Origin: Pisaster brevispinus
Taxonomy: Eukaryota > Echinodermata > Asteroidea > Forcipulatida > Asteriidae
Direction of reading: 5' to 3'
Length of the DNA: 64,000 nucleotides
Assembly: GCA_023634235.1 (NCBI GenBank)
Contig: JAMKCF010000008.1
Coordinates: 17,357,558 to 17,421,557, forward strand
A program made the translations under genes and the position numbers. Under the pieces are notes generated by a model. The model was not told the origin of the DNA. It made no database searches and saw only the letters and a program-made list of their open reading frames with translations. Position 1 is the first letter of the stretch. The number at the start of each line of letters is the position of its first letter. This document shows, in pieces, positions 20,112-63,160 of this stretch.

Positions 20112-20395
20112 ATGGCATGCCGTGGCCAAGCGGATAAAAACACCGGAGTCAAGCTCTGGTGTTTCTGATCAGCAGAGTGTGGGTTCGAGTCCCGGTCATG
20201 ACACTTGTGCCCTAAAGCACGACACTTAACCATTATTGCTTCGTCCTTCGGATGGGACGTAAAGCCGTAGGTCCCGTGTGTTGTGTAATGAACGTTAAAA
20301 AAACCCAGTGCGCTTATCGCAAAGAGAAGAGGGTTCACCAAGGTCTTCCAGGTTTGATTGGCTGCATATTGCACCACAGCACCTTGTAAACCATT
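20112..20395 (+). repeat. tRNA-Leu-derived SINE, best copy in the window
   Basis: The head reads as a class II tRNA: gccgtggccaagcgg (A box), an anticodon-arm-like ccggagtcaagctctgg, a variable arm tttctgatcagcag, then gtgggttcgagtcccggtcatgaca (B box plus acceptor-like end). The body has gcttcgtccttcggatggga, cgtaaagccgtaggtccc, aacccagtgcgcttatcg. The anticodon loop and B box are tRNA-Leu-like, but the stems are imperfect. This is a SINE head, not a tRNA gene. Confidence 0.8.
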
Positions 20396-41100: not shown

Positions 41101-44100
41101 TGTTTTTTTCTTTCAATTCAACATCTTTGTCTGATGAAAAGAATGATGTTCAAATGTTGAGTTTGAATCTCATAAATATTTCCAAACTCTGCTGAGTATC
41201 ACCCATAAACAGAAGGGATAAATCTTCTCTTAGTGTTTGTTCAAATAAAACAGTTTGTGTGATAAAAACTGTGTTCTCATTTTGATTCTAGTCTCTTCCC
41301 CTTTTGATTCTGATCTTGTAAATAAAATTCCTGTCCAGTAAAGATTCTGAGCTACAAGTCCTGCGGATTTGTGGATTTTTCCACCCAATTCGAGCCCTAG
41401 AGGTATGCTGAAATGATGGCATTTCCAACCTGTTAGTAACCCCTGGAGTTGGATATTTCAAGGATCATTTGGGGATCAAGGCCCAATTCCAAAGAGCTGC
41501 TTAAAACCATGTACAGACAGTTCATTTCCGAAAAATCATCCCCATATGCCCATACATTGGTGATCTTGTTATTTATTTGCCCTGTCATTTTCAGGAAATT
41601 TCAGGAACTTATTAAAAAACTAACACTGATTGTTTTACTCATTTCTCAAAAGCAAGAGCATTTCAGGCAAAAATATTTCAAGGGAAGTTTTACATCATGA
41701 CCTCCATTATACAAAAGTAATGCGCAATTTTGTAAATACTTCTTTTTCAATCTAACACCAATGCTGTGCACACCCTCTAGGCCTGTTCCTCCAAAATACA
41801 AAATAAATAAATAAAAAACACACCAAACAGAAACTAAACAAGCAAGCAAGCAAACAAACAAACAAACAAACAACAAGTAAAAATCCGTTACCTTTGATAG
41901 ATGGCCGACAGACACAGCGTTTGTCCCCTCATCAGCAAACAACGAAAACATCAATCTACTCTGTTGGTCCACAGTTCCGTTCATCAAATAACCCAACGTC
42001 GTCATAAAGGCGTTCTGAGATATTTTGATCTCGCCTGGAATGTTTTTGGCCTTCATCTCTTTGTGGAGTTGTATTACTATCGAGGATGGGAGCTTGCCCC
42101 CAATGAAGCCCTGAAAGTAGAGAAAAGAAGCAACAAATTAAGGGAGAAAACTAAAACCCATTTATTATGAAACCCTGCAACAAGTTAACTCAGAACAGCT
42201 GAACAGGGATGATATTTGACAAACGCGAACATTCCTGAAAAAATGGCATGTGGGCCTGGGTTACCCGCTTATTCTAGACCCAGAACATCCAAAGTGTTAC
42301 AATACAGGAGATTTACAGACTCTGTGTGCCACCAGAAATACAGAACTTCAGGTTTGGACACAGTGTGGACTATTTCTTTCTCCTTTTGGCGATTTCTTTA
42401 CTTGTCTCAAGAAAAATTAAAGGGTCAGGAAAATTCCTGAGAAATCACATGCCTAAACTGAGGGGAAAAAACTATAATTGTTGAAAAACAGTAGCAAAGC
42501 TGGGGTTCGTGGCACCCATGGCAAGGTTTTTTAGATGGTGCCCTTCACTTACTTTATCTCTGAGTCTTTAAAAAATAGATGAGGTAACACTAATAACGAC
42601 GACTCACACACCACTTAAAAAACATCAAACAAACACACCTTGGTCGGTTTGGCTACCCTCTTAGGCAGTACCTGGGGGTGTACATGCCCACCTTGCCCCC
42701 TGCTTCTGCCACCGTCTAAAGCCCAAGTTGTTCGAAACTGAGATTTGTATCAACTTTATGTCAATTCCGGCCTAAAACTTGTAGCCACAATTTTCAAGTC
42801 TATTGTTATGACTAAATGGTGTGTCTTGACCAAGTCGTCTTGCACACCCAGGGCTCTGGCTCTGGTGTTGTCTGTGTAGAGTCTGTTGGTTCAGGTCTGA
42901 GTCGTGACATTTTTGCCATTAACAGTTTAACTGTATTTGGCTTCCTCCTTATGATGGAATGTAAAGCCGTAGGTCCCATTTGTAAATGCACGTACAAAAA
43001 AACATTACACTCATTGTTAAGAAGAGAGGTTTGCCCCAGTGTTTCCGGTATGGTTGTCTAGAGATTGTGCAGTCATCACCTGGTAAGAGGCACTTTGCAT
43101 TGAGTTTCATAACTCATAACAGCTCTGTATAATAAAAAGAAAAATCTATTTCAAGCCAATATGGCTCACCAGGCTGGTGTTATCTGGTGTCATTAAATGA
43201 CTTGGAATATTTCTATTCCCCGTGGACAGGATGCCAGTCCATCCCAGGTTACTCCCCAACTCTTGCCATTACCCATTTGAACTCCTGGGTGGAGAGAAGC
43301 AATTAGGATTAAAGTGCCAGGCTCAAGGACACAAGTGTCCGACCGACTTATGCCAGGGTTCAAACACACATTCTGTAAATCACAAAAATTGAGTATGCCA
43401 GCGTAGACCCCTCAGCCATGACAACCACGACTAAATCATTGAGATACATAGTACAGGGTTTAGCAGGACCAGTTAGCTTGCCATTTCACTGGTCAATCAC
43501 CTTTTCCACTGGTCCATATTTTTGTCAACACTGAACTAGCCAGTCAGACCGCTTCGAGTGAATGTTGACTGGTCATCTGGTGTTTCAACTGGCGCATTTG
43601 GCCAGGGGACTACTGTTAGAGCCTTGTCACACGAGGCAATTTTTCCAGGCAACTTTGAGGCAACCAAGTGCAGTGCATGCTACAGGACCTTTTTGGTAGC
43701 ACAGGAGTCATTTTTCAAACAATGTCTTATGATCCCCAAGAAAAATATATGAACATTGAAATGTGAATGCCTTTTCTTCATGGAGATTGCCTGGAGCTGG
43801 TTGCCTGTAAATTGCCTCGTGTGACATGGCCCTTAAGGTGAGAACTCTGCAAGTGTAGATAAACTATAAAGTGCCATCACAAACTATACATGCGATCAGC
43901 AACATGACATAAAGTATTGGGATCTCGTGTCTCCTAACCTGAAGCTGTGGCAGGGTGAAACCATCTTCCACCTTGTTAGGTTGACATATTTTCTTGAAGG
44001 TTTGGCTGAGTTCTTCAACTTCATGCTCCGAGAAGAGACTTGACGACCCCTTCCCAGGAGTCCCTTTCACTTCCTGGTCTACGGCTGAGCTGGGCGACTG

Positions 44101-44106
44101 TCCCAT
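35198..44106 (-). CDS. MEAK7: MTOR-associated TLDc-domain protein MEAK7 (TLDC1), 8 coding exons
   Basis: MEAK7 is a lysosome-associated TLDc protein linked to mTOR signalling in mammals. Coding exons, minus strand: 44106-43939, 42110-41892, 40828-40696, 40382-40249, 38734-38413, 36851-36733, 36571-36392, 35353-35198. They join in phase to 1431 nt (476 aa; human 456). The N-terminus MGQSPSS fits an N-myristoylation signal (Gly2, Ser6), as in human MGNSRS. Exons 2-4 are the helical EF-hand-like region ('LMNGTVDQQSRLMFSLFADE'). Exons 5-7 form the TLDc domain: 'WRFCFSSNLHGASFATLLSH', 'VFGGFASQSWE', 'NDHYMYLNIDQQTLPNGLGM', 'FDYFGLWINQEFGEGHSRA', 'CTTYDSPQLSS', 'DTVEVWAVG'. The last exon has 'SVLDKDPEAQALLEL', which matches the human C-terminus. 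A pyrimidine-rich acceptor (ttttttttcag|GTAT) at 44175-44176 suggests a 5' UTR intron upstream. Confidence 0.95.
35475..35856. mobile_element. hAT-like MITE, 'CAGGGTTCGTAC' ends, MEAK7 intron 7
   Basis: Left end CAGGGTTCGTACACTT (35480) and right end GGACCGTACGAACCCTG (to about 35852) are inverted. Subterminal 'tcaaggacttt' repeats fill both sides (about four left, six right). CAGGG termini of this form are common in hAT-type MITEs. The interior (35570-35720) is unique-looking and non-coding. Confidence 0.75.
35853..36391. repeat. Degenerate tandem copies of the MEAK7 exon 7/intron 7 junction
   Basis: Plus-strand chain at the real exon end (36388-36455): acctgtggtttctttggcagtggtccaacagcccacac ttcaactgtatcaatagtaaa. 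Diverged copies: about 36245-36330 (taactgaggtctttaggggagt), 36128-36200 (taactgaggtttctaggggagtggtccgacagcccacacc), 36006-36090 (taactgaggtttcttgggggac, accaacagcccacacc), 35898-35965 (tttgtggtttctttgctcgtggtc, acagcccacat). Between them is a repeated 'cctagggacagacag...aacaaaccaaca' filler. Spacing is about 110-145 bp. Confidence 0.75.
37012..37355 (-). repeat. Long SINE copy, MEAK7 intron 5
   Basis: Starts aataataataatcgattcttatatagcgc, then cccctggtcactgggcc, catctcagctccctggggagtatacagccgg, ccctcacaggtacccattttacccctgggtggagagaagcaattatggttaagtgtcttgctcaaggacacaagtgtcacgaccgggatttgaaccc (split). The tRNA-like head is on the minus strand; its 3' A-box end is lost after gacaccctaaa. Confidence 0.75.
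38806..39422. mobile_element. 609-bp TTAA-flanked transposon inserted in another repeat (MEAK7 intron 4)
   Basis: TTAA at 38806-38809 and 39419-39422 flank CCCTTTCGTTACC ... GGTAACGAAAGGG, a perfect 13-bp terminal inverted repeat. Inside the left end, TTACCAT(A/T)GGCGACTTTAGTCGAC occurs twice, 51 bp apart. No transposase frame. TTAA with CCCT termini is piggyBac/Kolobok-like. Flanking sequences join to restore the repeat seen uninterrupted at 9995-10290. Confidence 0.8.
39423..39635 (+). repeat. Interspersed 'ACCAGTGG' repeat, right part of the interrupted copy
   Basis: cagtggtccgctggccaaatgccagtt, aaacacccaaggaccagtcaaa, ctggtctggctggtaagt, tatgaaatatggaccagtg, gctaactggtcctgctggccggtcactg. 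The left stub (cagcgttctccc) precedes the transposon at 38796-38805. Confidence 0.65.
39640..39915 (+). repeat. Long tRNA-derived SINE, near-complete, MEAK7 intron 4
   Basis: Leader: cagtttcctttgtggtttatta, cttcccaggttgtatcc, gatccctggctatacggcagttacaggttgaatggc, agggagaccgccaacattt. Head: cgggctagatagctggtagagtgccggc (four bases of the A box, tcagt, appear deleted), then aggtcgcaggttcaagtcccgc. Tail: tcaatttttctttgttcaaccc. Confidence 0.75.
39975..40100. mobile_element. Degenerate 'TTATGAAGCTGCTTA' MITE
   Basis: Left gcccacttttatgaagctgcttaccac and internal gattctatgggcc, ctctgcgcaaagcaaaatc recall the 5528-5820 family. The right end is poor. Confidence 0.4.
40992..41082. repeat. 46-bp tandem duplication with perfect palindrome
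   Basis: tccactggcctgaggccagt, then gatttaagtgttacaccagtaaacg, occurs twice in direct tandem (40992-41037; 41038-41082) with near identity. Each copy contains CACTGGCCT-G-AGGCCAGTG, a perfect 9-bp-arm hairpin. It lies in MEAK7 intron 2. Confidence 0.85.
41838..41876. repeat. (CAAA/CAAG)n microsatellite near MEAK7 exon 2
   Basis: acaagcaagcaagcaaacaaacaaacaaacaaacaac, about nine tetramers, 16 bp from the exon 2 donor (41891). Confidence 0.8.
42490..42720. repeat. Degenerate copy of the 1938-2195 element
   Basis: agcaaagctggggttcgtggcacccatggcaaggttttttagatggtgcccttcacttactttatctctgagtc (in part) follows the order of 1940-2025, and the right side has cctgggggtgtacatgcccaccttgccccctgcttctgccac. 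Inverted ends are eroded. Confidence 0.5.
42818..43090 (+). repeat. Decayed tRNA-Leu-derived SINE, MEAK7 intron 1
   Basis: ggctctggctctggtgtt, ggttcaggtctgagtcgtgacattt, cttcctccttatgatggaatgtaaagccgtaggtccc, cattgttaagaagagaggtttgccccagtg follow the block order of 20112-20395 with many substitutions. Confidence 0.55.
43190..43615 (-). repeat. Long-SINE fragment followed by reverse 'ACCAGTGG' repeat
   Basis: 43190-43425: gaactcctgggtggagagaagcaatta, ctcaaggacacaagtgtcc, tcagccatgac (long SINE, decayed). 43445-43615: ggaccagttagcttgccatttcactgg, ccactggtccatattttt, ctggtcatctggtgtttc, atttggccagggga, which is the reverse of the repeat at 39423-39635. Confidence 0.55.
43616..43836. mobile_element. 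MITE with 'CCTTGTCACACGAGGCAA' inverted ends
   Basis: Left gccttgtcacacgaggcaat and right attgcctcgtgtgacatggccc are inverted repeats. A TTAA borders the right end (43833-43836) and TTAG the left (43616-43619). Inner blocks ccaggcaac / ttgcctgg are also inverted. About 100 bp from MEAK7 exon 1. Partial relative at 34612-34700. Confidence 0.7.
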
Positions 44107-44309: not shown

Positions 44310-45480
44310 GGATGCTGGTCATCTCGCCCCCTAGCAAGCTCGCCCCCAACAAAGTTGCCCCCTGCAAAGTCGCCCCCCTACCCGGCTCGCCCCGGGTTGT
44401 TGCAAAGTTGCCCCCTGACAATGTCGCCCCCTGACAATGTCGCCCCCTGACAATGTCGCCCCCTGACAATGCGCCCCCTAGCAAAGTCGCCCCCAGATGT
44501 TATTTAGTTCGGAAAATAATTAAGGCTTCTTATGGTAACGGTTTTGAATTGGCCAGACCCAGAAAGATCCACTGTAGCAGCTGTGAACAAAAGATATAGT
44601 TAAAACCATTTTCAGAAAAGATTCCATTTGAAGTAATGTGCTTGTGAAAGGTCTAAATAGGGCCTATATCGTTTTTCATCCCCCCCCCCTCCAACATTGA
44701 AAATCTACTCTATAAATTGAATGTTAAATTTACTACAGGTTTTCCTGGTCATTGTCGGCCACATTTAGTATTTTTATACAAAAGGTGACTCTTTCGAACG
44801 ACTAATTTGAATAGACTGGCGTGCCAGACCCCTGGATCGTCCCCAAATGGGGGAGGCTATTTCTAGTTTTGAACTTCAGAAACCCTAATAAAATATGTAG
44901 CTTTCCACCGAGTATCCACTATAAAAAAAAATTAAAAGGATGAAAAAAATAACGATGTCAATAATCATTAAATTTAATGATTGTTTTGTTTTAATTTTTA
45001 TGTATTATTTATTTGCAAAAAAAAAAAGTCTATTAGTAACAAGTAGGCTAACGATTTTTTAAATGTTATATCTGTAATTCAGTAATTGCTAGGTATTATA
45101 TTTGTACAAAAAATGTCTATAAAGTTTATTAAGTATTTGTTGGGTGTTATAATTTACGATAAATTGAGCGACGTTAATAAAATCATTGACAAATTTGGGG
45201 CATGGAGTTTATTATTTGATGACGTTTTTTTACCCAAGCACAAACTAAACATACAAGCTATAATTAGGCTTTACTCAATATTCCTTTCAATACGATTACC
45301 ACCATAAGAAGCCTTATTTCCAAACTAAATAACATCTGGGGGCGACTTTGCTAGGGGGCGGCATTGTTTGGGGGTGACTTTGTAACAACCCGGGGCGAGC
45401 CGGTTAGGGGGCGACTTTGCACGGGGCGACTTTGTTGGGGGCGAGGTTGCTAGGGGGCGAGATGATTAGCCTCAGTTGGA
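44310..45480. mobile_element. Inverted-repeat element with 'GTCGCCCCC' arms, upstream of MEAK7
   Basis: Left arm 44310-44545 (tctcgccccctagcaag ... aaagtcgcccccagatgttatttagttcgg..aataattaaggcttcttatggt) and right arm 45296-45480 (accataagaagccttatttcc..aactaaataacatctgggggcgactttgctaggggg) are inverted. The left arm holds four tandem copies of a 16-bp unit, gacaatgtcgccccct (44409-44470). The 750-bp interior is AT-rich with no recognisable protein. Related in form to foldback elements; family unknown. Confidence 0.65.
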
Positions 45481-46824: not shown

Positions 46825-47115
46825 CCCCAAAAGTAAATGTACCCTTCGTGTCGCAAAACAGATGGAATTTTGTTATTTAATCCGATGGACCATACCACTG
46901 GGCACACTTAATTTTGGAGGTGGCTAATTCGGATCACTAATTAATACCTAAATTGCCGCTACAATACACGCCATTTTCTGTGAAACTTTAATGTATGGCA
47001 CTTGTTACAAATACTTACTATTATGAATGCACTCGCCGTAAAGTAAACGTACCCTTCATGTTGCATAAAAGATGAAATTATTCCTTAGTCCGATAGACCA
47101 TACCACTGGGCACAC
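46825..47115 (+). repeat. Two direct copies of a ~90-bp segment, 208 bp apart, at the edge of the satellite
   Basis: Copy 1 (46825-46912) and copy 2 (47033-47115) share cactc.cc..aagtaaa.gtacccttc.tgt.gca, then agatg.aatt, then tccgat.gaccataccactgggcacact. In copy 1 the sequence continues ttaattttgg; in copy 2 it runs straight into the first degenerate satellite units. Confidence 0.75.
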
Positions 47116-47117
47116 TG

Positions 47118-47230
47118 GGCATTGCCCTGCTGCAAGGCCTTGGTGCAGCAAGGCAAGGCCCTGCCTGCAGCAAGGCAAGGCCCTGCCTGCAGCAAGGCAA
47201 GGCCCTTGGTGCAGCAAGGCCTTGGTGCAG
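47118..47230 (+). repeat. Degenerate left border of the minisatellite (22-bp progenitor-like units)
   Basis: gggcattgccctgctgcaaggccttggtgcagcaaggc, then a 22-bp unit (ctgcctgcagcaaggcaaggcc) about two and a half times, before the regular 16-bp spacing starts. The 22-bp unit contains the 16-bp unit's core plus an extra 'gcaagg'-type insertion. Confidence 0.8.
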
Positions 47231-50200
47231 CAATGCCTTGGTGCAGCAAGGCCTTGCTGCAGCAAGGCCTTGGTGCAGCAAGGCCTTGGTGCAGCAAGGC
47301 CTTGGTGCAGCAAGGCCTTGGTGCAGCAAGGCCTTGGTGCAGCAAGGCCTTGGTGCAGCAAGGCCTTGGTGCAGCAAGGCCTTGGTGCAGCAAGGCCTTG
47401 GTGCAGCAAGGCCTTGGTGCAGCAAGGCCTTGGTGCAGCAAGGCCTTGGTGCAGCAAGGCCTTGGTGCAGCAAGGCCTTGGTGCAGCAAGGCCTTGGTGC
47501 AGCAAGGCCTTGGTGCAGCAAGGCCTTGGTGCAGCAAGGCCTTGGTGCAGCAAGGCCTTGGTGCAGCAAGGCCTTGGTGCAGCAAGGCCTTGGTGCAGCA
47601 AGGCCTTGGTGCAGCAAGGCCTTGGTGCAGCAAGGCCTTGGTGCAGCAAGGCCTTGGTGCAGCAAGGCCTTGGTGCAGCAAGGCCTTGGTGCAGCAAGGC
47701 CTTGGTGCAGCAAGGCATTGGTGCAGCAAGGCCTTGGTGCAGCAAGGCCTTGGTGCAGCAAGGCCTTGGTGCAGCAAGGCCTTGGTGCAGCAAGGCCTTG
47801 GTGCAGCAAGGCCTTGGTGCAGCAAGGCCTTGGTGCAGCAAGGCCTTGGTGCAGCAAGGCCTTGGTGCAGCAAGGCCTTGGTGCAGCAAGGCCTTGGTGC
47901 AGCAAGGCCTTGGTGCAGCAAGGCCTTGGTGCAGCAAGGCCTTGGTGCAGCAAGGCCTTGGTGCAGCAAGGCCTTGGTGCAGCAAGGCCTTGGTGCAGCA
48001 AGGCCTTGGTGCAGCAAGGCCTTGGTGCAGCAAGGCCTTGGTGCAGCAAGGCCTTGGTGCAGCAAGGCCTTGGTGCAGCAAGGCCTTGGTGCAGCAAGGC
48101 CTTGGTGCAGCAAGGCCTTGGTGCAGCAAGGCCTTGGTGCAGCAAGGCCTTGGTGCAGCAAGGCCTTGGTGCAGCAAGGCCTTGCTGCAGCAAGGCCTTG
48201 CTGCAGCAAGGCCTTGGTGCAGCAAGGCCTTGCTGCAGCAAGGCCTTGCTGCAGCAAGGCCTTGCTGCAGCAAGGCCTTGGTGCAGCAAGGCCTTGGTGC
48301 AGCAAGGCCTTGGTGCAGCAAGGCCTTGGTGCAGCAAGGCCTTGGTGCAGCAAGGCCTTGGTGCAGCAAGGCCTTGGTGCAGCAAGGCCTTGGTGCAGCA
48401 AGGCCTTGGTGCAGCAAGGCCTTGGTGCAGCAAGGCCTTGGTGCAGCAAGGCCTTGGTGCAGCAAGGCCTTGGTGCAGCAAGGCCTTGGTGCAGCAAGGC
48501 CTTGGTGCAGCAAGGCCTTGGTGCAGCAAGGCCTTGGTGCAGCAAGGCCTTGGTGCAGCAAGGCCTTGGTGCAGCAAGGCCTTGCTGCAGCAAGGCCTTG
48601 CTGCAGCAAGGCCTTGGTGCAGCAAGGCCTTGCTGCAGCAAGGCCTTGCTGCAGCAAGGCCTTGGTGCAGCAAGGCCTTGGTGCAGCAAGGCCTTGGTGC
48701 AGCAAGGCCTTGGTGCAGCAAGGCCTTGGTGCAGCAAGGCCTTGGTGCAGCAAGGCCTTGGTGCAGCAAGGCCTTGGTGCAGCAAGGCCTTGGTGCAGCA
48801 AGGCCTTGGTGCAGCAAGGCCTTGGTGCAGCAAGGCCTTGGTGCAGCAAGGCCTTGGTGCAGCAAGGCCTTGGTGCAGCAAGGCCTTGGTGCAGCAAGGC
48901 CTTGGTGCAGCAAGGCCTTGGTGCAGCAAGGCCTTGGTGCAGCAAGGCCTTGGTGCAGCAAGGCCTTGGTGCAGCAAGGCCTTGGTGCAGCAAGGCCTTG
49001 GTGCAGCAAGGCCTTGGTGCAGCAAGGCCTTGGTGCAGCAAGGCCTTGGTGCAGCAAGGCCTTGGTGCAGCAAGGCCTTGGTGCAGCAAGGCCTTGGTGC
49101 AGCAAGGCCTTGGTGCAGCAAGGCCTTGGTGCAGCAAGGCCTTGGTGCAGCAAGGCCTTGGTGCAGCAAGGCCTTGGTGCAGCAAGGCCTTGGTGCAGCA
49201 AGGCCTTGGTGCAGCAAGGCCTTGGTGCAGCAAGGCCTTGGTGCAGCAAGGCCTTGGTGCAGCAAGGCCTTGGTGCAGCAAGGCCTTGGTGCAGCAAGGC
49301 CTTGGTGCAGCAAGGCCTTGGTGCAGCAAGGCCTTGGTGCAGCAAGGCCTTGGTGCAGCAAGGCCTTGGTGCAGCAAGGCCTTGGTGCAGCAAGGCCTTG
49401 GTGCAGCAAGGCCTTGGTGCAGCAAGGCCTTGGTGCAGCAAGGCCTTGGTGCAGCAAGGCCTTGGTGCAGCAAGGCCTTGGTGCAGCAAGGCCTTGGTGC
49501 AGCAAGGCCTTGGTGCAGCAAGGCCTTGGTGCAGCAAGGCCTTGGTGCAGCAAGGCCTTGGTGCAGCAAGGCCTTGGTGCAGCAAGGCCTTGGTGCAGCA
49601 AGGCCTTGGTGCAGCAAGGCCTTGGTGCAGCAAGGCCTTGGTGCAGCAAGGCCTTGGTGCAGCAAGGCCTTGGTGCAGCAAGGCCTTGGTGCAGCAAGGC
49701 CTTGGTGCAGCAAGGCCTTGGTGCAGCAAGGCCTTGGTGCAGCAAGGCCTTGGTGCAGCAAGGCCTTGGTGCAGCAAGGCCTTGGTGCAGCAAGGCCTTG
49801 GTGCAGCAAGGCCTTGGTGCAGCAAGGCCTTGGTGCAGCAAGGCCTTGGTGCAGCAAGGCCTTGGTGCAGCAAGGCCTTGGTGCAGCAAGGCCTTGGTGC
49901 AGCAAGGCCTTGGTGCAGCAAGGCCTTGGTGCAGCAAGGCCTTGGTGCAGCAAGGCCTTGGTGCAGCAAGGCCTTGGTGCAGCAAGGCCTTGGTGCAGCA
50001 AGGCCTTGGTGCAGCAAGGCCTTGGTGCAGCAAGGCCTTGGTGCAGCAAGGCCTTGGTGCAGCAAGGCCTTGGTGCAGCAAGGCCTTGGTGCAGCAAGGC
50101 CTTGGTGCAGCAAGGCCTTGGTGCAGCAAGGCCTTGGTGCAGCAAGGCCTTGGTGCAGCAAGGCCTTGGTGCAGCAAGGCCTTGGTGCAGCAAGGCCTTG

Positions 50201-53200
50201 GTGCAGCAAGGCCTTGGTGCAGCAAGGCCTTGGTGCAGCAAGGCCTTGGTGCAGCAAGGCCTTGGTGCAGCAAGGCCTTGGTGCAGCAAGGCCTTGGTGC
50301 AGCAAGGCCTTGGTGCAGCAAGGCCTTGGTGCAGCAAGGCCTTGGTGCAGCAAGGCCTTGGTGCAGCAAGGCCTTGGTGCAGCAAGGCCTTGGTGCAGCA
50401 AGGCCTTGGTGCAGCAAGGCCTTGGTGCAGCAAGGCCTTGGTGCAGCAAGGCCTTGGTGCAGCAAGGCCTTGGTGCAGCAAGGCCTTGGTGCAGCAAGGC
50501 CTTGGTGCAGCAAGGCCTTGGTGCAGCAAGGCCTTGGTGCAGCAAGGCCTTGGTGCAGCAAGGCCTTGGTGCAGCAAGGCCTTGGTGCAGCAAGGCCTTG
50601 GTGCAGCAAGGCCTTGGTGCAGCAAGGCCTTGGTGCAGCAAGGCCTTGGTGCAGCAAGGCCTTGGTGCAGCAAGGCCTTGGTGCAGCAAGGCCTTGGTGC
50701 AGCAAGGCCTTGGTGCAGCAAGGCCTTGGTGCAGCAAGGCCTTGGTGCAGCAAGGCCTTGGTGCAGCAAGGCCTTGGTGCAGCAAGGCCTTGGTGCAGCA
50801 AGGCCTTGGTGCAGCAAGGCCTTGGTGCAGCAAGGCCTTGGTGCAGCAAGGCCTTGGTGCAGCAAGGCCTTGGTGCAGCAAGGCCTTGGTGCAGCAAGGC
50901 CTTGGTGCAGCAAGGCCTTGGTGCAGCAAGGCCTTGGTGCAGCAAGGCCTTGGTGCAGCAAGGCCTTGGTGCAGCAAGGCCTTGGTGCAGCAAGGCCTTG
51001 GTGCAGCAAGGCCTTGGTGCAGCAAGGCCTTGGTGCAGCAAGGCCTTGGTGCAGCAAGGCCTTGGTGCAGCAAGGCCTTGGTGCAGCAAGGCCTTGGTGC
51101 AGCAAGGCCTTGGTGCAGCAAGGCCTTGGTGCAGCAAGGCCTTGGTGCAGCAAGGCCTTGGTGCAGCAAGGCCTTGGTGCAGCAAGGCCTTGGTGCAGCA
51201 AGGCCTTGGTGCAGCAAGGCCTTGGTGCAGCAAGGCCTTGGTGCAGCAAGGCCTTGGTGCAGCAAGGCCTTGGTGCAGCAAGGCCTTGGTGCAGCAAGGC
51301 CTTGGTGCAGCAAGGCCTTGGTGCAGCAAGGCCTTGGTGCAGCAAGGCCTTGGTGCAGCAAGGCCTTGGTGCAGCAAGGCCTTGGTGCAGCAAGGCCTTG
51401 GTGCAGCAAGGCCTTGGTGCAGCAAGGCCTTGGTGCAGCAAGGCCTTGGTGCAGCAAGGCCTTGGTGCAGCAAGGCCTTGGTGCAGCAAGGCCTTGGTGC
51501 AGCAAGGCCTTGGTGCAGCAAGGCCTTGGTGCAGCAAGGCCTTGGTGCAGCAAGGCCTTGGTGCAGCAAGGCCTTGGTGCAGCAAGGCCTTGGTGCAGCA
51601 AGGCCTTGGTGCAGCAAGGCCTTGGTGCAGCAAGGCCTTGGTGCAGCAAGGCCTTGGTGCAGCAAGGCCTTGGTGCAGCAAGGCCTTGGTGCAGCAAGGC
51701 CTTGGTGCAGCAAGGCCTTGGTGCAGCAAGGCCTTGGTGCAGCAAGGCCTTGGTGCAGCAAGGCCTTGGTGCAGCAAGGCCTTGGTGCAGCAAGGCCTTG
51801 GTGCAGCAAGGCCTTGGTGCAGCAAGGCCTTGGTGCAGCAAGGCCTTGGTGCAGCAAGGCCTTGGTGCAGCAAGGCCTTGGTGCAGCAAGGCCTTGGTGC
51901 AGCAAGGCCTTGGTGCAGCAAGGCCTTGGTGCAGCAAGGCCTTGGTGCAGCAAGGCCTTGGTGCAGCAAGGCCTTGGTGCAGCAAGGCCTTGGTGCAGCA
52001 AGGCCTTGGTGCAGCAAGGCCTTGGTGCAGCAAGGCCTTGGTGCAGCAAGGCCTTGGTGCAGCAAGGCCTTGGTGCAGCAAGGCCTTGGTGCAGCAAGGC
52101 CTTGGTGCAGCAAGGCCTTGGTGCAGCAAGGCCTTGGTGCAGCAAGGCCTTGGTGCAGCAAGGCCTTGGTGCAGCAAGGCCTTGGTGCAGCAAGGCCTTG
52201 GTGCAGCAAGGCCTTGGTGCAGCAAGGCCTTGGTGCAGCAAGGCCTTGGTGCAGCAAGGCCTTGGTGCAGCAAGGCCTTGGTGCAGCAAGGCCTTGGTGC
52301 AGCAAGGCCTTGGTGCAGCAAGGCCTTGGTGCAGCAAGGCCTTGGTGCAGCAAGGCCTTGGTGCAGCAAGGCCTTGGTGCAGCAAGGCCTTGGTGCAGCA
52401 AGGCCTTGGTGCAGCAAGGCCTTGGTGCAGCAAGGCCTTGGTGCAGCAAGGCCTTGGTGCAGCAAGGCCTTGGTGCAGCAAGGCCTTGGTGCAGCAAGGC
52501 CTTGGTGCAGCAAGGCCTTGGTGCAGCAAGGCCTTGGTGCAGCAAGGCCTTGGTGCAGCAAGGCCTTGGTGCAGCAAGGCCTTGGTGCAGCAAGGCCTTG
52601 GTGCAGCAAGGCCTTGGTGCAGCAAGGCCTTGGTGCAGCAAGGCCTTGGTGCAGCAAGGCCTTGGTGCAGCAAGGCCTTGGTGCAGCAAGGCCTTGGTGC
52701 AGCAAGGCCTTGGTGCAGCAAGGCCTTGGTGCAGCAAGGCCTTGGTGCAGCAAGGCCTTGGTGCAGCAAGGCCTTGGTGCAGCAAGGCCTTGGTGCAGCA
52801 AGGCCTTGGTGCAGCAAGGCCTTGGTGCAGCAAGGCCTTGGTGCAGCAAGGCCTTGGTGCAGCAAGGCCTTGGTGCAGCAAGGCCTTGGTGCAGCAAGGC
52901 CTTGGTGCAGCAAGGCCTTGGTGCAGCAAGGCCTTGGTGCAGCAAGGCCTTGGTGCAGCAAGGCCTTGGTGCAGCAAGGCCTTGGTGCAGCAAGGCCTTG
53001 GTGCAGCAAGGCCTTGGTGCAGCAAGGCCTTGGTGCAGCAAGGCCTTGGTGCAGCAAGGCCTTGGTGCAGCAAGGCCTTGGTGCAGCAAGGCCTTGGTGC
53101 AGCAAGGCCTTGGTGCAGCAAGGCCTTGGTGCAGCAAGGCCTTGGTGCAGCAAGGCCTTGGTGCAGCAAGGCCTTGGTGCAGCAAGGCCTTGGTGCAGCA

Positions 53201-56200
53201 AGGCCTTGGTGCAGCAAGGCCTTGGTGCAGCAAGGCCTTGGTGCAGCAAGGCCTTGGTGCAGCAAGGCCTTGGTGCAGCAAGGCCTTGGTGCAGCAAGGC
53301 CTTGGTGCAGCAAGGCCTTGGTGCAGCAAGGCCTTGGTGCAGCAAGGCCTTGGTGCAGCAAGGCCTTGGTGCAGCAAGGCCTTGGTGCAGCAAGGCCTTG
53401 GTGCAGCAAGGCCTTGGTGCAGCAAGGCCTTGGTGCAGCAAGGCCTTGGTGCAGCAAGGCCTTGGTGCAGCAAGGCCTTGGTGCAGCAAGGCCTTGGTGC
53501 AGCAAGGCCTTGGTGCAGCAAGGCCTTGGTGCAGCAAGGCCTTGGTGCAGCAAGGCCTTGGTGCAGCAAGGCCTTGGTGCAGCAAGGCCTTGGTGCAGCA
53601 AGGCCTTGGTGCAGCAAGGCCTTGGTGCAGCAAGGCCTTGGTGCAGCAAGGCCTTGGTGCAGCAAGGCCTTGGTGCAGCAAGGCCTTGGTGCAGCAAGGC
53701 CTTGGTGCAGCAAGGCCTTGGTGCAGCAAGGCCTTGGTGCAGCAAGGCCTTGGTGCAGCAAGGCCTTGGTGCAGCAAGGCCTTGGTGCAGCAAGGCCTTG
53801 GTGCAGCAAGGCCTTGGTGCAGCAAGGCCTTGGTGCAGCAAGGCCTTGGTGCAGCAAGGCCTTGGTGCAGCAAGGCCTTGGTGCAGCAAGGCCTTGGTGC
53901 AGCAAGGCCTTGGTGCAGCAAGGCCTTGGTGCAGCAAGGCCTTGGTGCAGCAAGGCCTTGGTGCAGCAAGGCCTTGGTGCAGCAAGGCCTTGGTGCAGCA
54001 AGGCCTTGGTGCAGCAAGGCCTTGGTGCAGCAAGGCCTTGGTGCAGCAAGGCCTTGGTGCAGCAAGGCCTTGGTGCAGCAAGGCCTTGGTGCAGCAAGGC
54101 CTTGGTGCAGCAAGGCCTTGGTGCAGCAAGGCCTTGGTGCAGCAAGGCCTTGGTGCAGCAAGGCCTTGGTGCAGCAAGGCCTTGGTGCAGCAAGGCCTTG
54201 GTGCAGCAAGGCCTTGGTGCAGCAAGGCCTTGGTGCAGCAAGGCCTTGGTGCAGCAAGGCCTTGGTGCAGCAAGGCCTTGGTGCAGCAAGGCCTTGGTGC
54301 AGCAAGGCCTTGGTGCAGCAAGGCCTTGGTGCAGCAAGGCCTTGGTGCAGCAAGGCCTTGGTGCAGCAAGGCCTTGGTGCAGCAAGGCCTTGGTGCAGCA
54401 AGGCCTTGGTGCAGCAAGGCCTTGGTGCAGCAAGGCCTTGGTGCAGCAAGGCCTTGGTGCAGCAAGGCCTTGGTGCAGCAAGGCCTTGGTGCAGCAAGGC
54501 CTTGGTGCAGCAAGGCCTTGGTGCAGCAAGGCCTTGGTGCAGCAAGGCCTTGGTGCAGCAAGGCCTTGGTGCAGCAAGGCCTTGGTGCAGCAAGGCCTTG
54601 GTGCAGCAAGGCCTTGGTGCAGCAAGGCCTTGGTGCAGCAAGGCCTTGGTGCAGCAAGGCCTTGGTGCAGCAAGGCCTTGGTGCAGCAAGGCCTTGGTGC
54701 AGCAAGGCCTTGGTGCAGCAAGGCCTTGGTGCAGCAAGGCCTTGGTGCAGCAAGGCCTTGGTGCAGCAAGGCCTTGGTGCAGCAAGGCCTTGGTGCAGCA
54801 AGGCCTTGGTGCAGCAAGGCCTTGGTGCAGCAAGGCCTTGGTGCAGCAAGGCCTTGGTGCAGCAAGGCCTTGGTGCAGCAAGGCCTTGGTGCAGCAAGGC
54901 CTTGGTGCAGCAAGGCCTTGGTGCAGCAAGGCCTTGGTGCAGCAAGGCCTTGGTGCAGCAAGGCCTTGGTGCAGCAAGGCCTTGGTGCAGCAAGGCCTTG
55001 GTGCAGCAAGGCCTTGGTGCAGCAAGGCCTTGGTGCAGCAAGGCCTTGGTGCAGCAAGGCCTTGGTGCAGCAAGGCCTTGGTGCAGCAAGGCCTTGGTGC
55101 AGCAAGGCCTTGGTGCAGCAAGGCCTTGGTGCAGCAAGGCCTTGCTGCAGCAAGGCCTTGCTGCAGCAAGGCCTTGGTGCAGCAAGGCCTTGGTGCAGCA
55201 AGGCCTTGGTGCAGCAAGGCCTTGGTGCAGCAAGGCCTTGGTGCAGCAAGGCCTTGGTGCAGCAAGGCCTTGGTGCAGCAAGGCCTTGGTGCAGCAAGGC
55301 CTTGGTGCAGCAAGGCCTTGGTGCAGCAAGGCCTTGGTGCAGCAAGGCCTTGGTGCAGCAAGGCCTTGGTGCAGCAAGGCCTTGGTGCAGCAAGGCCTTG
55401 GTGCAGCAAGGCCTTGGTGCAGCAAGGCCTTGGTGCAGCAAGGCCTTGGTGCAGCAAGGCCTTGGTGCAGCAAGGCCTTGGTGCAGCAAGGCCTTGGTGC
55501 AGCAAGGCCTTGGTGCAGCAAGGCCTTGGTGCAGCAAGGCCTTGGTGCAGCAAGGCCTTGGTGCAGCAAGGCCTTGGTGCAGCAAGGCCTTGGTGCAGCA
55601 AGGCCTTGGTGCAGCAAGGCCTTGGTGCAGCAAGGCCTTGGTGCAGCAAGGCCTTGGTGCAGCAAGGCCTTGGTGCAGCAAGGCCTTGGTGCAGCAAGGC
55701 CTTGGTGCAGCAAGGCCTTGGTGCAGCAAGGCCTTGGTGCAGCAAGGCCTTGGTGCAGCAAGGCCTTGGTGCAGCAAGGCCTTGGTGCAGCAAGGCCTTG
55801 GTGCAGCAAGGCCTTGGTGCAGCAAGGCCTTGGTGCAGCAAGGCCTTGGTGCAGCAAGGCCTTGGTGCAGCAAGGCCTTGGTGCAGCAAGGCCTTGGTGC
55901 AGCAAGGCCTTGGTGCAGCAAGGCCTTGGTGCAGCAAGGCCTTGGTGCAGCAAGGCCTTGGTGCAGCAAGGCCTTGGTGCAGCAAGGCCTTGGTGCAGCA
56001 AGGCCTTGGTGCAGCAAGGCCTTGGTGCAGCAAGGCCTTGGTGCAGCAAGGCCTTGGTGCAGCAAGGCCTTGGTGCAGCAAGGCCTTGGTGCAGCAAGGC
56101 CTTGGTGCAGCAAGGCCTTGGTGCAGCAAGGCCTTGGTGCAGCAAGGCCTTGGTGCAGCAAGGCCTTGGTGCAGCAAGGCCTTGGTGCAGCAAGGCCTTG

Positions 56201-59200
56201 GTGCAGCAAGGCCTTGGTGCAGCAAGGCCTTGGTGCAGCAAGGCCTTGGTGCAGCAAGGCCTTGGTGCAGCAAGGCCTTGGTGCAGCAAGGCCTTGGTGC
56301 AGCAAGGCCTTGGTGCAGCAAGGCCTTGGTGCAGCAAGGCCTTGGTGCAGCAAGGCCTTGGTGCAGCAAGGCCTTGGTGCAGCAAGGCCTTGGTGCAGCA
56401 AGGCCTTGGTGCAGCAAGGCCTTGGTGCAGCAAGGCCTTGGTGCAGCAAGGCCTTGGTGCAGCAAGGCCTTGGTGCAGCAAGGCCTTGGTGCAGCAAGGC
56501 CTTGGTGCAGCAAGGCCTTGGTGCAGCAAGGCCTTGGTGCAGCAAGGCCTTGGTGCAGCAAGGCCTTGGTGCAGCAAGGCCTTGGTGCAGCAAGGCCTTG
56601 GTGCAGCAAGGCCTTGGTGCAGCAAGGCCTTGGTGCAGCAAGGCCTTGGTGCAGCAAGGCCTTGGTGCAGCAAGGCCTTGGTGCAGCAAGGCCTTGGTGC
56701 AGCAAGGCCTTGGTGCAGCAAGGCCTTGGTGCAGCAAGGCCTTGGTGCAGCAAGGCCTTGGTGCAGCAAGGCCTTGGTGCAGCAAGGCCTTGGTGCAGCA
56801 AGGCCTTGGTGCAGCAAGGCCTTGGTGCAGCAAGGCCTTGGTGCAGCAAGGCCTTGGTGCAGCAAGGCCTTGGTGCAGCAAGGCCTTGGTGCAGCAAGGC
56901 CTTGGTGCAGCAAGGCCTTGGTGCAGCAAGGCCTTGGTGCAGCAAGGCCTTGGTGCAGCAAGGCCTTGGTGCAGCAAGGCCTTGGTGCAGCAAGGCCTTG
57001 GTGCAGCAAGGCCTTGGTGCAGCAAGGCCTTGGTGCAGCAAGGCCTTGGTGCAGCAAGGCCTTGGTGCAGCAAGGCCTTGGTGCAGCAAGGCCTTGGTGC
57101 AGCAAGGCCTTGGTGCAGCAAGGCCTTGGTGCAGCAAGGCCTTGGTGCAGCAAGGCCTTGGTGCAGCAAGGCCTTGGTGCAGCAAGGCCTTGGTGCAGCA
57201 AGGCCTTGGTGCAGCAAGGCCTTGGTGCAGCAAGGCCTTGGTGCAGCAAGGCCTTGGTGCAGCAAGGCCTTGGTGCAGCAAGGCCTTGGTGCAGCAAGGC
57301 CTTGGTGCAGCAAGGCCTTGGTGCAGCAAGGCCTTGGTGCAGCAAGGCCTTGGTGCAGCAAGGCCTTGGTGCAGCAAGGCCTTGGTGCAGCAAGGCCTTG
57401 GTGCAGCAAGGCCTTGGTGCAGCAAGGCCTTGGTGCAGCAAGGCCTTGGTGCAGCAAGGCCTTGGTGCAGCAAGGCCTTGGTGCAGCAAGGCCTTGGTGC
57501 AGCAAGGCCTTGGTGCAGCAAGGCCTTGGTGCAGCAAGGCCTTGGTGCAGCAAGGCCTTGGTGCAGCAAGGCCTTGGTGCAGCAAGGCCTTGGTGCAGCA
57601 AGGCCTTGGTGCAGCAAGGCCTTGGTGCAGCAAGGCCTTGGTGCAGCAAGGCCTTGGTGCAGCAAGGCCTTGGTGCAGCAAGGCCTTGGTGCAGCAAGGC
57701 CTTGGTGCAGCAAGGCCTTGGTGCAGCAAGGCCTTGGTGCAGCAAGGCCTTGGTGCAGCAAGGCCTTGGTGCAGCAAGGCCTTGGTGCAGCAAGGCCTTG
57801 GTGCAGCAAGGCCTTGGTGCAGCAAGGCCTTGGTGCAGCAAGGCCTTGGTGCAGCAAGGCCTTGGTGCAGCAAGGCCTTGGTGCAGCAAGGCCTTGGTGC
57901 AGCAAGGCCTTGGTGCAGCAAGGCCTTGGTGCAGCAATGCCTTGGTGCAGCAATGCCTTGGTGCAGCAATGCCTTGGTGCAGCAATGCCTTGGTGCAGCA
58001 ATGCCTTGGTGCAGCAATGCCTTGGTGCAGCAATGCCTTGGTGCAGCAATGCCTTGGTGCAGCAATGCCTTGGTGCAGCAATGCCTTGGTGCAGCAATGC
58101 CTTGGTGCAGCAATGCCTTGGTGCAGCAATGCCTTGGTGCAGCAATGCCTTGGTGCAGCAATGCCTTGGTGCAGCAATGCCTTGGTGCAGCAATGCCTTG
58201 GTGCAGCAATGCCTTGGTGCAGCAATGCCTTGGTGCAGCAATGCCTTGGTGCAGCAATGCCTTGGTGCAGCAATGCCTTGGTGCAGCAATGCCTTGGTGC
58301 AGCAATGCCTTGGTGCAGCAATGCCTTGGTGCAGCAATGCCTTGGTGCAGCAATGCCTTGGTGCAGCAATGCCTTGGTGCAGCAATGCCTTGGTGCAGCA
58401 ATGCCTTGGTGCAGCAATGCCTTGGTGCAGCAATGCCTTGGTGCAGCAATGCCTTGGTGCAGCAATGCCTTGGTGCAGCAATGCCTTGGTGCAGCAATGC
58501 CTTGGTGCAGCAATGCCTTGGTGCAGCAATGCCTTGGTGCAGCAATGCCTTGGTGCAGCAATGCCTTGGTGCAGCAATGCCTTGGTGCAGCAATGCCTTG
58601 GTGCAGCAATGCCTTGGTGCAGCAATGCCTTGGTGCAGCAATGCCTTGGTGCAGCAATGCCTTGGTGCAGCAATGCCTTGGTGCAGCAATGCCTTGGTGC
58701 AGCAATGCCTTGGTGCAGCAATGCCTTGGTGCAGCAATGCCTTGGTGCAGCAATGCCTTGGTGCAGCAATGCCTTGGTGCAGCAATGCCTTGGTGCAGCA
58801 ATGCCTTGGTGCAGCAATGCCTTGGTGCAGCAATGCCTTGGTGCAGCAATGCCTTGGTGCAGCAATGCCTTGGTGCAGCAATGCCTTGGTGCAGCAATGC
58901 CTTGGTGCAGCAATGCCTTGGTGCAGCAATGCCTTGGTGCAGCAATGCCTTGGTGCAGCAATGCCTTGGTGCAGCAATGCCTTGGTGCAGCAATGCCTTG
59001 GTGCAGCAATGCCTTGGTGCAGCAATGCCTTGGTGCAGCAATGCCTTGGTGCAGCAATGCCTTGGTGCAGCAATGCCTTGGTGCAGCAATGCCTTGGTGC
59101 AGCAATGCCTTGGTGCAGCAATGCCTTGGTGCAGCAATGCCTTGGTGCAGCAATGCCTTGGTGCAGCAATGCCTTGGTGCAGCAATGCCTTGGTGCAGCA

Positions 59201-61388
59201 ATGCCTTGGTGCAGCAATGCCTTGGTGCAGCAATGCCTTGGTGCAGCAATGCCTTGGTGCAGCAATGCCTTGGTGCAGCAATGCCTTGGTGCAGCAATGC
59301 CTTGGTGCAGCAATGCCTTGGTGCAGCAATGCCTTGGTGCAGCAATGCCTTGGTGCAGCAATGCCTTGGTGCAGCAATGCCTTGGTGCAGCAATGCCTTG
59401 GTGCAGCAATGCCTTGGTGCAGCAATGCCTTGGTGCAGCAATGCCTTGGTGCAGCAATGCCTTGGTGCAGCAATGCCTTGGTGCAGCAATGCCTTGGTGC
59501 AGCAATGCCTTGGTGCAGCAATGCCTTGGTGCAGCAATGCCTTGGTGCAGCAATGCCTTGGTGCAGCAATGCCTTGGTGCAGCAATGCCTTGGTGCAGCA
59601 ATGCCTTGGTGCAGCAATGCCTTGGTGCAGCAATGCCTTGGTGCAGCAATGCCTTGGTGCAGCAATGCCTTGGTGCAGCAATGCCTTGGTGCAGCAATGC
59701 CTTGGTGCAGCAATGCCTTGGTGCAGCAATGCCTTGGTGCAGCAATGCCTTGGTGCAGCAATGCCTTGGTGCAGCAATGCCTTGGTGCAGCAATGCCTTG
59801 GTGCAGCAATGCCTTGGTGCAGCAATGCCTTGGTGCAGCAATGCCTTGGTGCAGCAATGCCTTGGTGCAGCAATGCCTTGGTGCAGCAATGCCTTGGTGC
59901 AGCAATGCCTTGGTGCAGCAATGCCTTGGTGCAGCAATGCCTTGGTGCAGCAATGCCTTGGTGCAGCAATGCCTTGGTGCAGCAATGCCTTGGTGCAGCA
60001 ATGCCTTGGTGCAGCAATGCCTTGGTGCAGCAATGCCTTGGTGCAGCAATGCCTTGGTGCAGCAATGCCTTGGTGCAGCAATGCCTTGGTGCAGCAATGC
60101 CTTGGTGCAGCAATGCCTTGGTGCAGCAATGCCTTGGTGCAGCAATGCCTTGGTGCAGCAATGCCTTGGTGCAGCAATGCCTTGGTGCAGCAATGCCTTG
60201 GTGCAGCAATGCCTTGGTGCAGCAATGCCTTGGTGCAGCAATGCCTTGGTGCAGCAATGCCTTGGTGCAGCAATGCCTTGGTGCAGCAATGCCTTGGTGC
60301 AGCAATGCCTTGGTGCAGCAATGCCTTGGTGCAGCAATGCCTTGGTGCAGCAATGCCTTGGTGCAGCAATGCCTTGGTGCAGCAATGCCTTGGTGCAGCA
60401 ATGCCTTGGTGCAGCAATGCCTTGGTGCAGCAATGCCTTGGTGCAGCAATGCCTTGGTGCAGCAATGCCTTGGTGCAGCAATGCCTTGGTGCAGCAATGC
60501 CTTGGTGCAGCAATGCCTTGGTGCAGCAATGCCTTGGTGCAGCAATGCCTTGGTGCAGCAATGCCTTGGTGCAGCAATGCCTTGGTGCAGCAATGCCTTG
60601 GTGCAGCAATGCCTTGGTGCAGCAATGCCTTGGTGCAGCAATGCCTTGGTGCAGCAATGCCTTGGTGCAGCAATGCCTTGGTGCAGCAATGCCTTGGTGC
60701 AGCAATGCCTTGGTGCAGCAATGCCTTGGTGCAGCAATGCCTTGGTGCAGCAATGCCTTGGTGCAGCAATGCCTTGGTGCAGCAATGCCTTGGTGCAGCA
60801 ATGCCTTGGTGCAGCAATGCCTTGGTGCAGCAATGCCTTGGTGCAGCAATGCCTTGGTGCAGCAATGCCTTGGTGCAGCAATGCCTTGGTGCAGCAATGC
60901 CTTGGTGCAGCAATGCCTTGGTGCAGCAATGCCTTGGTGCAGCAATGCCTTGGTGCAGCAATGCCTTGGTGCAGCAATGCCTTGGTGCAGCAATGCCTTG
61001 GTGCAGCAATGCCTTGGTGCAGCAATGCCTTGGTGCAGCAATGCCTTGGTGCAGCAATGCCTTGGTGCAGCAATGCCTTGGTGCAGCAATGCCTTGGTGC
61101 AGCAATGCCTTGGTGCAGCAATGCCTTGGTGCAGCAATGCCTTGGTGCAGCAATGCCTTGGTGCAGCAATGCCTTGGTGCAGCAATGCCTTGGTGCAGCA
61201 ATGCCTTGGTGCAGCAATGCCTTGGTGCAGCAATGCCTTGGTGCAGCAATGCCTTGGTGCAGCAATGCCTTGGTGCAGCAATGCCTTGGTGCAGCAATGC
61301 CTTGGTGCAGCAATGCCTTGGTGCAGCAATGCCTTGGTGCAGCAATGCCTTGGTGCAGCAATGCCTTGGTGCAGCAATGCCTTGGTGC
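47206..61388. repeat. 14.2-kb minisatellite of a 16-bp nearly self-complementary unit (~886 copies)
   Basis: Plus-strand unit GGTGCAGCAAGGCCTT (type A) from about 47.2 to 57.93 kb, about 670 copies; type B, GGTGCAGCAATGCCTT, from 57938 to 61388, 216 copies without exception seen. Variants inside A: GCTGCAGC units at 47257; at 48185, 48201, 48233, 48249, 48265; at 48585, 48601, 48633, 48649; at 55145, 55161; one early B unit at 47238; one unit with AAGGCATT at 47716. The type A unit matches its own reverse complement at 14 of 16 positions, and the GCTGCAGC variant at all 16. The unit contains no CpG. Since 16 is not a multiple of 3, every frame reads the same 16-residue cycle and none has a stop. 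Confidence 0.97.
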
Positions 61389-61441
61389 ATGCCGCGGACA
61401 CGCCGCGCACCTGCGTTTCCAAAGTTTCCCTATTTCGCGGT

Positions 61442-61525
61442 GAGCAGTGTGCTGTGTGCTGTGTGCTGTGTGCTGTGTGCTGTGTGCTGTGTGCTGTGTG
61501 CTGTGTGCAGTGTGCAGTATGCAGT
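61442..61525 (+). repeat. (GTGTGCT)n 7-bp microsatellite
   Basis: About nine copies of gtgctgt with the last two decayed to gtgtgca. It is separated from the 16-bp array by about 50 bp of G+C-rich unique sequence (tgccgcggacacgccgcgcac). Confidence 0.9.
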
Positions 61526-61534
61526 TAAAAAAGA

Positions 61535-61610
61535 TTTGCACGAGCGTGATTCGAACCTCTCCCCTTCTCTCTTCAAGTCGGCCGTCTTACCTCTGCGCTA
61601 AATTACTGCC
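61535..61610 (-). repeat. tRNA-Ser-like sequence
   Basis: Minus strand: taatttagcgcagaggtaagacggccgacttgaagagag, then gagaggttcgaatcacgctcgtgc. A box TAGCGCAGAGGTAAG, an ACTTGAA anticodon-loop-like segment and B box GGTTCGAATCACG are recognisable. A second copy is at 63570-63640. Acceptor stems do not pair well, so it is tRNA-like, not a confident tRNA gene. Confidence 0.55.
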
Positions 61611-61679: not shown

Positions 61680-62035
61680 GTTGCTTTTTTTTCCAACCAG
61701 TACTCGAACCCGGGTCTTAGGATATGAAAGACCATCACCTATCCAGTTGTGCTAACCGACTGATATACTGGAAGTGTTGTTTATTGTAGAGATATATAAT
61801 TCTTCACTTCCTTTGTAAGATAAAAAACACAACCCCACTGGGGATCGAACCTGGGTCTTGCGATTTACAAGACCATCACCGATCCAGTTGTGCTAACCGA
61901 CTGATACACTGGAAGCGTTGTTTATTTTAGAGATATATAATTCTTCACTTCCTTCGTAAGATAAAAAACACAACCCCACTGGGGTTCGAACCCGGGTCTT
62001 GCGATTTGCACATACATAAACTATTAACTGTCCAG
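61680..62035 (-). repeat. tRNA-like units, older divergent part of the tandem block
   Basis: Three units carry cgaacc(c/t)gggtctt on the plus strand; two of them also carry ccagttgtgctaaccgactgat. On the minus strand this is box A TTAGCACAACTGGAT and box B GGTTCGA. The spacer has gttgtttatt(g/t)tagagatatataattcttcacttcctt(t/c)gtaagataaaaaacacaaccccactgggg, repeated about 140 bp apart. Confidence 0.65.
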
Positions 62036-62089
62036 CTCATAAAGGTTGCTGTATATTTCAGATATTAATAATATTGTCTACCACCACCT

Positions 62090-63160
62090 TTTGGTTTTCC
62101 ACTATATAGTATCTACTTAATTTCCTATGAAGGTAAAAGGAAATTTGTTGCTTTTGTCATATCATCCAACCAGTACCCAAACCTCCGTCTTTCGGTATGC
62201 AAGACCATCACCTATCCAGTTGTGCTAACTGACTGATCTACTGGACGTGTTCTTTATTTTAGATATAGATATTAGTTTTTTCCAATATATAGTGTCTACT
62301 TTATTTCCTATGAAGGTAAAAGGAAAATCTGTTGCTTTTGTCATCCAACCAGTACTCAAACCCGGGTCTTTCGGTATGCAAGACCGTCACCTATCTAGTT
62401 GTGCTAACCGACTGATATACTGGAAGCGTTGTTTATTTTAGATATAGATATTGTTTTTTCCCAATATATAGTGTCTACTTAATTTCCTATGAAGGTAAAA
62501 GGAAATCTGTTGCTTTTGTCATCCAACCAGCACTCGAACCCGGGTGTTTCGGTATGCAAGCCCATCAACTATCCAGTTGTGCTAACTGACTGATCTACTG
62601 GACGTGTTCTTTATTTTAGATATAGATATTAGTTTTTTCCAATATATAGTGTCTACTTTATTTCCTATGAAGGTAAAAGGAAAATCTGTTGCTTTTGTCA
62701 TCCAACCAGTACTCAAACCCGGGTCTTTCGGTATGCAAGACCGTCACCTATCTAGTTGTGCTAACCGACTGATATACTGGAAGCGTTGTTTATTTTAGAT
62801 ATAGATATTGTTTTTTCCCAATATATAGTGTCTACTTAATTTCCTATGAAGGTAAAAGGAAATCTGTTGCTTTTGTCATCCAACCAGCACTCGAACCCGG
62901 GTGTTTCGGTATGCAAGCCCATCACCTATCCAGTTGTGCTAACTGACTGATCTACTGGACGTGTTCTTTATTTTAGATATAGATATTGTTTTTTCCAATA
63001 TATAGTGTCTACTTAATTTCCTATGAAGATAAAAAGGAAATCTGTTGCTTTTGTCATCAAACCAGAACTCGAACCCGGGTCTTTCGGTATGCAAGACCAT
63101 CACCTATCCAGTTGTGCTAACTGACTGATCTACTGGACGTGTTCTTTATTTAATAAAATT
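62090..63160 (-). repeat. 178-bp tandem repeat with tRNA-like core; 357-bp dimer repeated
   Basis: Six units, marked by ccaatatatagtgtctac at about 62099, 62281, 62460, 62639, 62817 and 62995 (spacing 178-182). Each has a minus-strand tRNA-like core: cggttagcacaactggataggtg (A box/D arm), ggtcttgcataccgaaagacc (6-bp-stem arm), cgggttcgagtactgg (T arm with 4 of 5 pairs). 62247-62441 and 62604-62798 are identical in translation, so the last duplication copied a two-unit block. Confidence 0.8.

Follow-up and report, generated by a model that had tools for sequence, protein, structure and literature searches.

The window analysed here, 64,000 nucleotides of the sea star Pisaster brevispinus (assembly GCA_023634235.1, contig JAMKCF010000008.1, positions 17,357,558 to 17,421,557), carries a long tandem array of a 16-bp repeat beside a mEAK-7-like gene. 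Reading the array unit by unit from 47214 to 61389 gave 886 consecutive 16-bp units with zero insertions or deletions, each of which (886/886) was one of four 16-mers: type A (GCAAGGCCTTGGTGCA; 656/886), type B (GCAATGCCTTGGTGCA; 217/886), type C (GCAAGGCCTTGCTGCA; 12/886) and type D (GCAAGGCATTGGTGCA; 1/886). Tandem Repeats Finder, run on the window, reported 47197-61389 at period 16, with 887 copies, 99% matches, 0% indels and a score of 26767. The GC content over the A regions is 62.5%. As a tandem direct repeat of 886 x 16 bp, with a unit length within the range of roughly 10-60 bp, the array is a minisatellite. From left to right, its units run A1 B1 C1 A28 D1 A28 C2 A1 C3 A19 C2 A1 C2 A405 C2 A173 B216, where each number gives the length of the run (Table 1).

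Table 1. Coordinates of the array and of its edge units, variant clusters and long runs within the window.
Feature	Position	Strand	Basis
First A-type 16-bp unit, left edge	47132..47147	+	
Three related 22-bp units, the last with a 16-bp-unit-like ending	47148..47213	+	
670 units, chiefly A (656 A, 12 C, 1 B, 1 D)	47214..57933	+	Unit-by-unit reading
Isolated B unit	47230..47245	+	Unit-by-unit reading
Single D unit	47710..47725	+	Unit-by-unit reading
C cluster CC-A-CCC	48174..48269	+	Unit-by-unit reading
C cluster CC-A-CC	48574..48653	+	Unit-by-unit reading
405 identical A units	48654..55133	+	Unit-by-unit reading
CC pair	55134..55165	+	Unit-by-unit reading
216 identical B units	57934..61389	+	Unit-by-unit reading

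A preliminary description of this DNA had reported about 886 copies of a 16-bp unit, with an abrupt switch from A to B at 57938 and a T in all 216 units that follow. Both observations were borne out. Unit 670 (counted from 0) is the first of the B block; it starts at base 57934 and carries the variant T at 57938, and B occupies 216/216 units from there onward. The same description had counted about 670 uniform type A units before the switch; their number stands, but they include the rarer types and form 16 runs. Its lone B-type unit at the far left, placed at 47238, exists, but starts at 47230 and has its T at 47234. The description did not mention C or D units and overlooked that the repeat unit is palindromic.

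Aligned with its reverse complement in the best register, unit A agrees at 14/16 positions, C at 16/16, and B and D at 12/16 each. None of 200 composition-matched shuffles of A reached a self-match of 14/16 (mean 8.7). The unit is thus imperfectly palindromic, which makes the locus both a direct and an inverted repeat: identity to the reverse complement is 87.7% for the A-rich part (10,672 bp) and 84.6% for the array as a whole. The single D unit is the reverse complement of B within a 10-bp core (CAATGCCTTG), although one D unit proves nothing. Folded as a single strand, ten A units reached -95.2 kcal/mol on the plus strand and -68.0 kcal/mol on the minus strand, against a mean of -30.6 kcal/mol (sd 14.2) for the controls, which were as low as A in 0/200 cases (plus) and 1/200 cases (minus). 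The ten-unit energies of the other types on the two strands were -54.7/-36.0 kcal/mol for B, -65.7/-24.3 for D and -117.6 on both strands for C. Single 20-base unit folds gave -5.5 kcal/mol for A, -5.8 for B, -6.1 for D and -7.8 for C, and dinucleotide shuffles folded as well in 16/200, 4/200, 1/200 and 12/200 cases, respectively. On the other strand, the values were -2.2 kcal/mol for A (134/200 shuffles as good) and -2.8 kcal/mol for B (80/200). The single-unit and ten-unit orders of the variants agree only in that C is lowest, and the fold and palindrome comparisons across variants were made after the variants had been seen.

The variants lie in contiguous blocks and are not interspersed. 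The array has 17 runs, whereas 2000 permutations of unit order gave 348 on average and never fewer than 309. CC adjacencies number six, against at most three in 20,000 permutations. The clusters CC-A-CCC and CC-A-CC resemble C blocks in which one unit has been overwritten. Left of the B block, there are 14 non-A units, 12 of which lie within the first 90 of 670 units; counted as runs, 7/8 lie there (binomial p ~6e-6, with the variant runs defined after the map was seen). The B block has zero variants in 3456 bp, and by the rule of three under a star model its units would differ from their common ancestor at less than about 0.09% of sites, a bound that is valid if consensus building erased no variants. 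This regularity may also be read as an assembly or polishing artefact: the array would be real, but consensus building would have altered its length or uniformity, and two haplotypes or two reads may be joined at the A/B switch. Only four sequences occur in 886 units, and the last 796 units (unit 90 onward) form just four runs (A, C, A and B), inside which an assembler cannot place reads. Against this, the rare C, D and edge units survive, so the consensus did not erase all variation, and on both sides the array continues directly into ordinary flanking sequence. We consider such an artefact improbable.

The preliminary description had argued from the sharp boundary, which lacks a mixing zone, that the array grew in two waves. 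Growth to 886 units with mutation was therefore simulated, and a run was scored as a match if its last run comprised at least 150 units, another run at least 300, and the runs totalled 8-25. From an ABCA start, the observed leftmost order, the best settings gave 10 matches of 200 with unit steps and 14 with bursts from one unit, compared with 3 for blocks of ~4 units, 1 for blocks of ~20 and 0 for uniform blocks. A 150-run set from the same start, which used a restart rule, gave 9/150 for unit steps, 23/150 for unit steps at the right end only, 1/150 each for blocks of ~20 and uniform blocks, and 0/150 each for blocks of ~100 and end blocks. From an AAAA start, the best settings gave 18 of 200 for unit steps, 27 for blocks of ~4, 8 for blocks of ~20, 3 for uniform blocks and 9 for bursts. 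The argument for two waves thus fails, given that simulated copying of single units yields sharp-edged blocks too and bursts fit about equally. Contiguous copying by itself is enough to produce one sharp boundary; two waves are possible but unneeded. The simulations are compatible with more than one step size and number of waves.

Separate waves would imply a large burst of amplification from one A unit and, later, another from one B unit, for example by rolling-circle copying and reinsertion or by break-induced replication. The burst simulations, with up to 14/200 matches (ABCA) and 9/200 (AAAA), and the variant-free runs of 405 and 216 units are consistent with such a history. However, the sharp boundary does not require them, since unit steps give matching maps in up to 10/200 and 18/200 runs, respectively, and the small C clusters show that copying on a small scale occurs too. 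Amplification in waves is a possible history of the array, though an unlikely one. That the B block descends locally from a single B unit, as the preliminary description proposed, fits the data; its amplification as a wave is possible only.

The array is probably a non-coding, hairpin-prone minisatellite with an imperfect-palindrome unit that has grown by the copying of neighbouring units. Strands exposed during replication or repair would fold back on themselves, and forks would stall or break at these fold-backs. Repair off a misaligned sister chromatid, by synthesis-dependent strand annealing or by slippage, would then add, remove or overwrite one or a few whole units. Because copies would remain beside their source, each new variant would form a growing block with a sharp edge, and B would be one such block at the right end of the array.

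Several observations weigh against this explanation. A lone A unit forms no strong hairpin, B and D alone fold slightly better than A, and the exceptional folding is confined to multi-unit fold-back. The AAAA start favours blocks of ~4 units (27/200) over unit steps (18/200), with ~20-unit blocks at 8/200. Furthermore, the simulations are crude and their criteria were chosen by hand, and growth that halted below 886 units was left unrecorded. One 400-bp duplication could account for the two similar C clusters, which lie 25 units apart. The array is represented by one allele in which no mutation has been observed, and consensus polishing may have contributed to its runs of 405, 173 and 216 identical units.

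A further proposal is that the degree of self-complementarity determines how far a variant can expand, with selection by the replication machinery acting against the perfect palindrome C. Of the 48 possible single changes of A, two give a perfect palindrome; C is one of these, and the other does not occur in the array. C also has the lowest ten-unit energy among all 48 single mutants. When the longest runs are ordered by self-match, C (16/16) reaches at most three adjacent units, A (14/16) 405 and B (12/16) 216. C itself would have arisen by repair of G-G mismatches in folded A units. Such repair would predict C or its mirror from A, of which only C was found, and the idea is speculative. The proposal as a whole seems quite doubtful to us. 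If it is true, the array is a natural record of selection against perfect inverted repeats.

All six reading frames are open across the array for 4783-4834 codons (47056-61601), which might suggest part of a giant protein. The six open frames arise because the 16-bp unit is free of stops, and no frame is favoured. A peptide search with both strands returned only two weak matches, at 43-48% identity, among the 7997 candidates sharing most words that were scored. A coding repeat is thus almost certainly not the explanation. Automatic gene callers could nevertheless predict a false giant protein from the open frames at 47056-61601. The proteins P0122 and P0123, weak matches to the translated repeat, have a period of roughly 16 residues by eye, as expected from a 16-bp repeat, and could be diverged arrays elsewhere.

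At the left edge, the last of the three 22-bp units differs from the 16-mer by six bases. The adjoining left-flank segment 46817-47116 is duplicated at a spacing of 208-211 bp (81.5% identity over 92 bp), and its second copy stops 15 bp short of the first A unit (47132). On the right, the array stops abruptly: after its final B unit comes unrelated sequence, followed by a 7-bp repeat, GTGTGCT (61447-61515). Beyond it lie tandem units of ~141-178 bp with tRNA-like sequence. These occupy 61704-63151 in lengths of 141, 178 and 357 bp (TCGAACCCGGG), with similar sequence to ~64000, and are possibly a tandem array of tRNA-derived SINEs (short interspersed elements). Neither ARAGORN nor Rfam found a tRNA in 61704-63151. 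ARAGORN returned 0 tRNAs for the window, and Rfam at gathering thresholds found none in the array and three marginal tRNA matches elsewhere in the window. A mobile element carrying the array was considered and is unsupported, as a BLAST search of the window with the right flank found no match beyond that flank.

Relatives of the unit were sought inside and outside the window. Outside the array, the 64-kb window holds four overlapping or single 16-mers with at most three mismatches (20332-20336 and 36484) and no array. Exact 22-mers of the array had 0 matches in viral contigs and prokaryotic genome contigs, neither of which is an animal-genome collection, and the unit, queried as two 13-mers at any position, occurred in 0 papers of the literature searched. 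A 1.1-kb element at 44311-45473 has inverted arms (72-77 nt pieces, 86-89% complementary) built from GCCCCC-containing tandem repeats of ~16 bp, and resembles a non-autonomous DNA transposon whose ends contain repeats. Kinship between the array and the 16-bp repeat at 44410-44494 within this element was rejected: the unit of the latter is not self-complementary (8/16) and has no likeness by eye, the two having been left unaligned. A short interstitial TTAGGG-like telomere repeat lies at 2453-2506.

The mEAK-7-like (TLDc) gene occupies 38122-44106 on the minus strand, where one 419-aa protein aligns in six pieces, with 94-100% identity over five pieces, 78% over the last and 87% over the joined query. 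Residues 1-56 of this protein correspond to the first coding exon (43939-44106, minus strand; 98% identity). The TLDc domain PF07534 was detected in the window (E 2.6e-17), and the closest solved structure is that of mEAK-7. The window also has a gamma-SNAP-like exon and a piece of a LINE-like (long interspersed element-like) reverse transcriptase with 582 matches, the sea star Asterias amurensis being among the matches listed (64% over 71% of the query). As the array edge at 47132 lies ~3.0 kb upstream of the first coding exon, the array could in principle act on expression of the mEAK-7-like gene, for example as a regulatory repeat, via structure or chromatin. This case is one of proximity, the searches described above yielded no related array with which to compare it, and we regard such a function as very unlikely. 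No host function of the array is indicated; taken alone, it is an ordinary outcome of repeat turnover.

The interest of the array is that unit type, fold-back strength and block length can all be read from one allele. If reads confirm it, the locus could serve as a natural test of whether the spread of a repeat variant is governed by hairpin stability. A has a StuI/HaeIII site that B is without, and C creates a PstI site. Because restriction sites differ among A, B and C, block lengths are measurable on a gel. The predicted fragments are 5.9 kb (StuI) and 3.7 kb (HaeIII) for the B block, and 6.5 kb (PstI) for the block of 405 A units.

The closest comparison is MSY1 of the human Y chromosome. 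MSY1 has a unit predicted to form a hairpin, variant blocks with sharp boundaries, strictly constant unit length and single-unit interruptions of blocks, with a 25-bp unit of 75% A+T and 77 repeats in the studied allele (PMC2599865). Its sperm mutants comprised changes of 1-3 units, boundary switches and single-unit type changes; the mechanism preferred by the authors is synthesis-dependent strand annealing involving sister chromatids, where stalling of forks at cruciforms possibly promotes the breaks, and they consider mismatch repair in cruciforms unlikely there (PMC2599865). The array is like MSY1 in the static signs of blocks, constant unit length, fold-back and interruptions of the CC-A-CCC kind, and unlike it in its 16-bp unit, 62.5% GC over A regions, near identity of the unit with its own reverse complement and 886 units (PMC2599865). 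Mutation was measured in MSY1 (PMC2599865), whereas the dynamics of the array are inferred from one allele. With regard to a hairpin-forming unit, the likeness holds for multi-unit fold-back, while the single A unit on the plus strand is unexceptional against dinucleotide shuffles (16/200). With regard to unit length, 886/886 units are 16 bp, yet three 22-bp relatives stand at the left edge.

Polarity is known at GC-rich autosomal minisatellites, and the crowding of variants at one end of the array resembles it. Satellite DNA with homogenised blocks forms long homogeneous tandem arrays, as is the case here; unlike that class, this is one 14-kb array near ordinary genes within a 64-kb window. 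GC-rich autosomal minisatellites named in the MSY1 study include MS32 and CEB1, and many autosomal minisatellites are described there as highly interspersed (PMC2599865). The array shares a GC-rich tandem unit with the MS32 and CEB1 class, from which it differs by its blocks and its palindromic unit. Rather than a new type of element, it appears to be a long representative of a known class, the hairpin-forming minisatellites.

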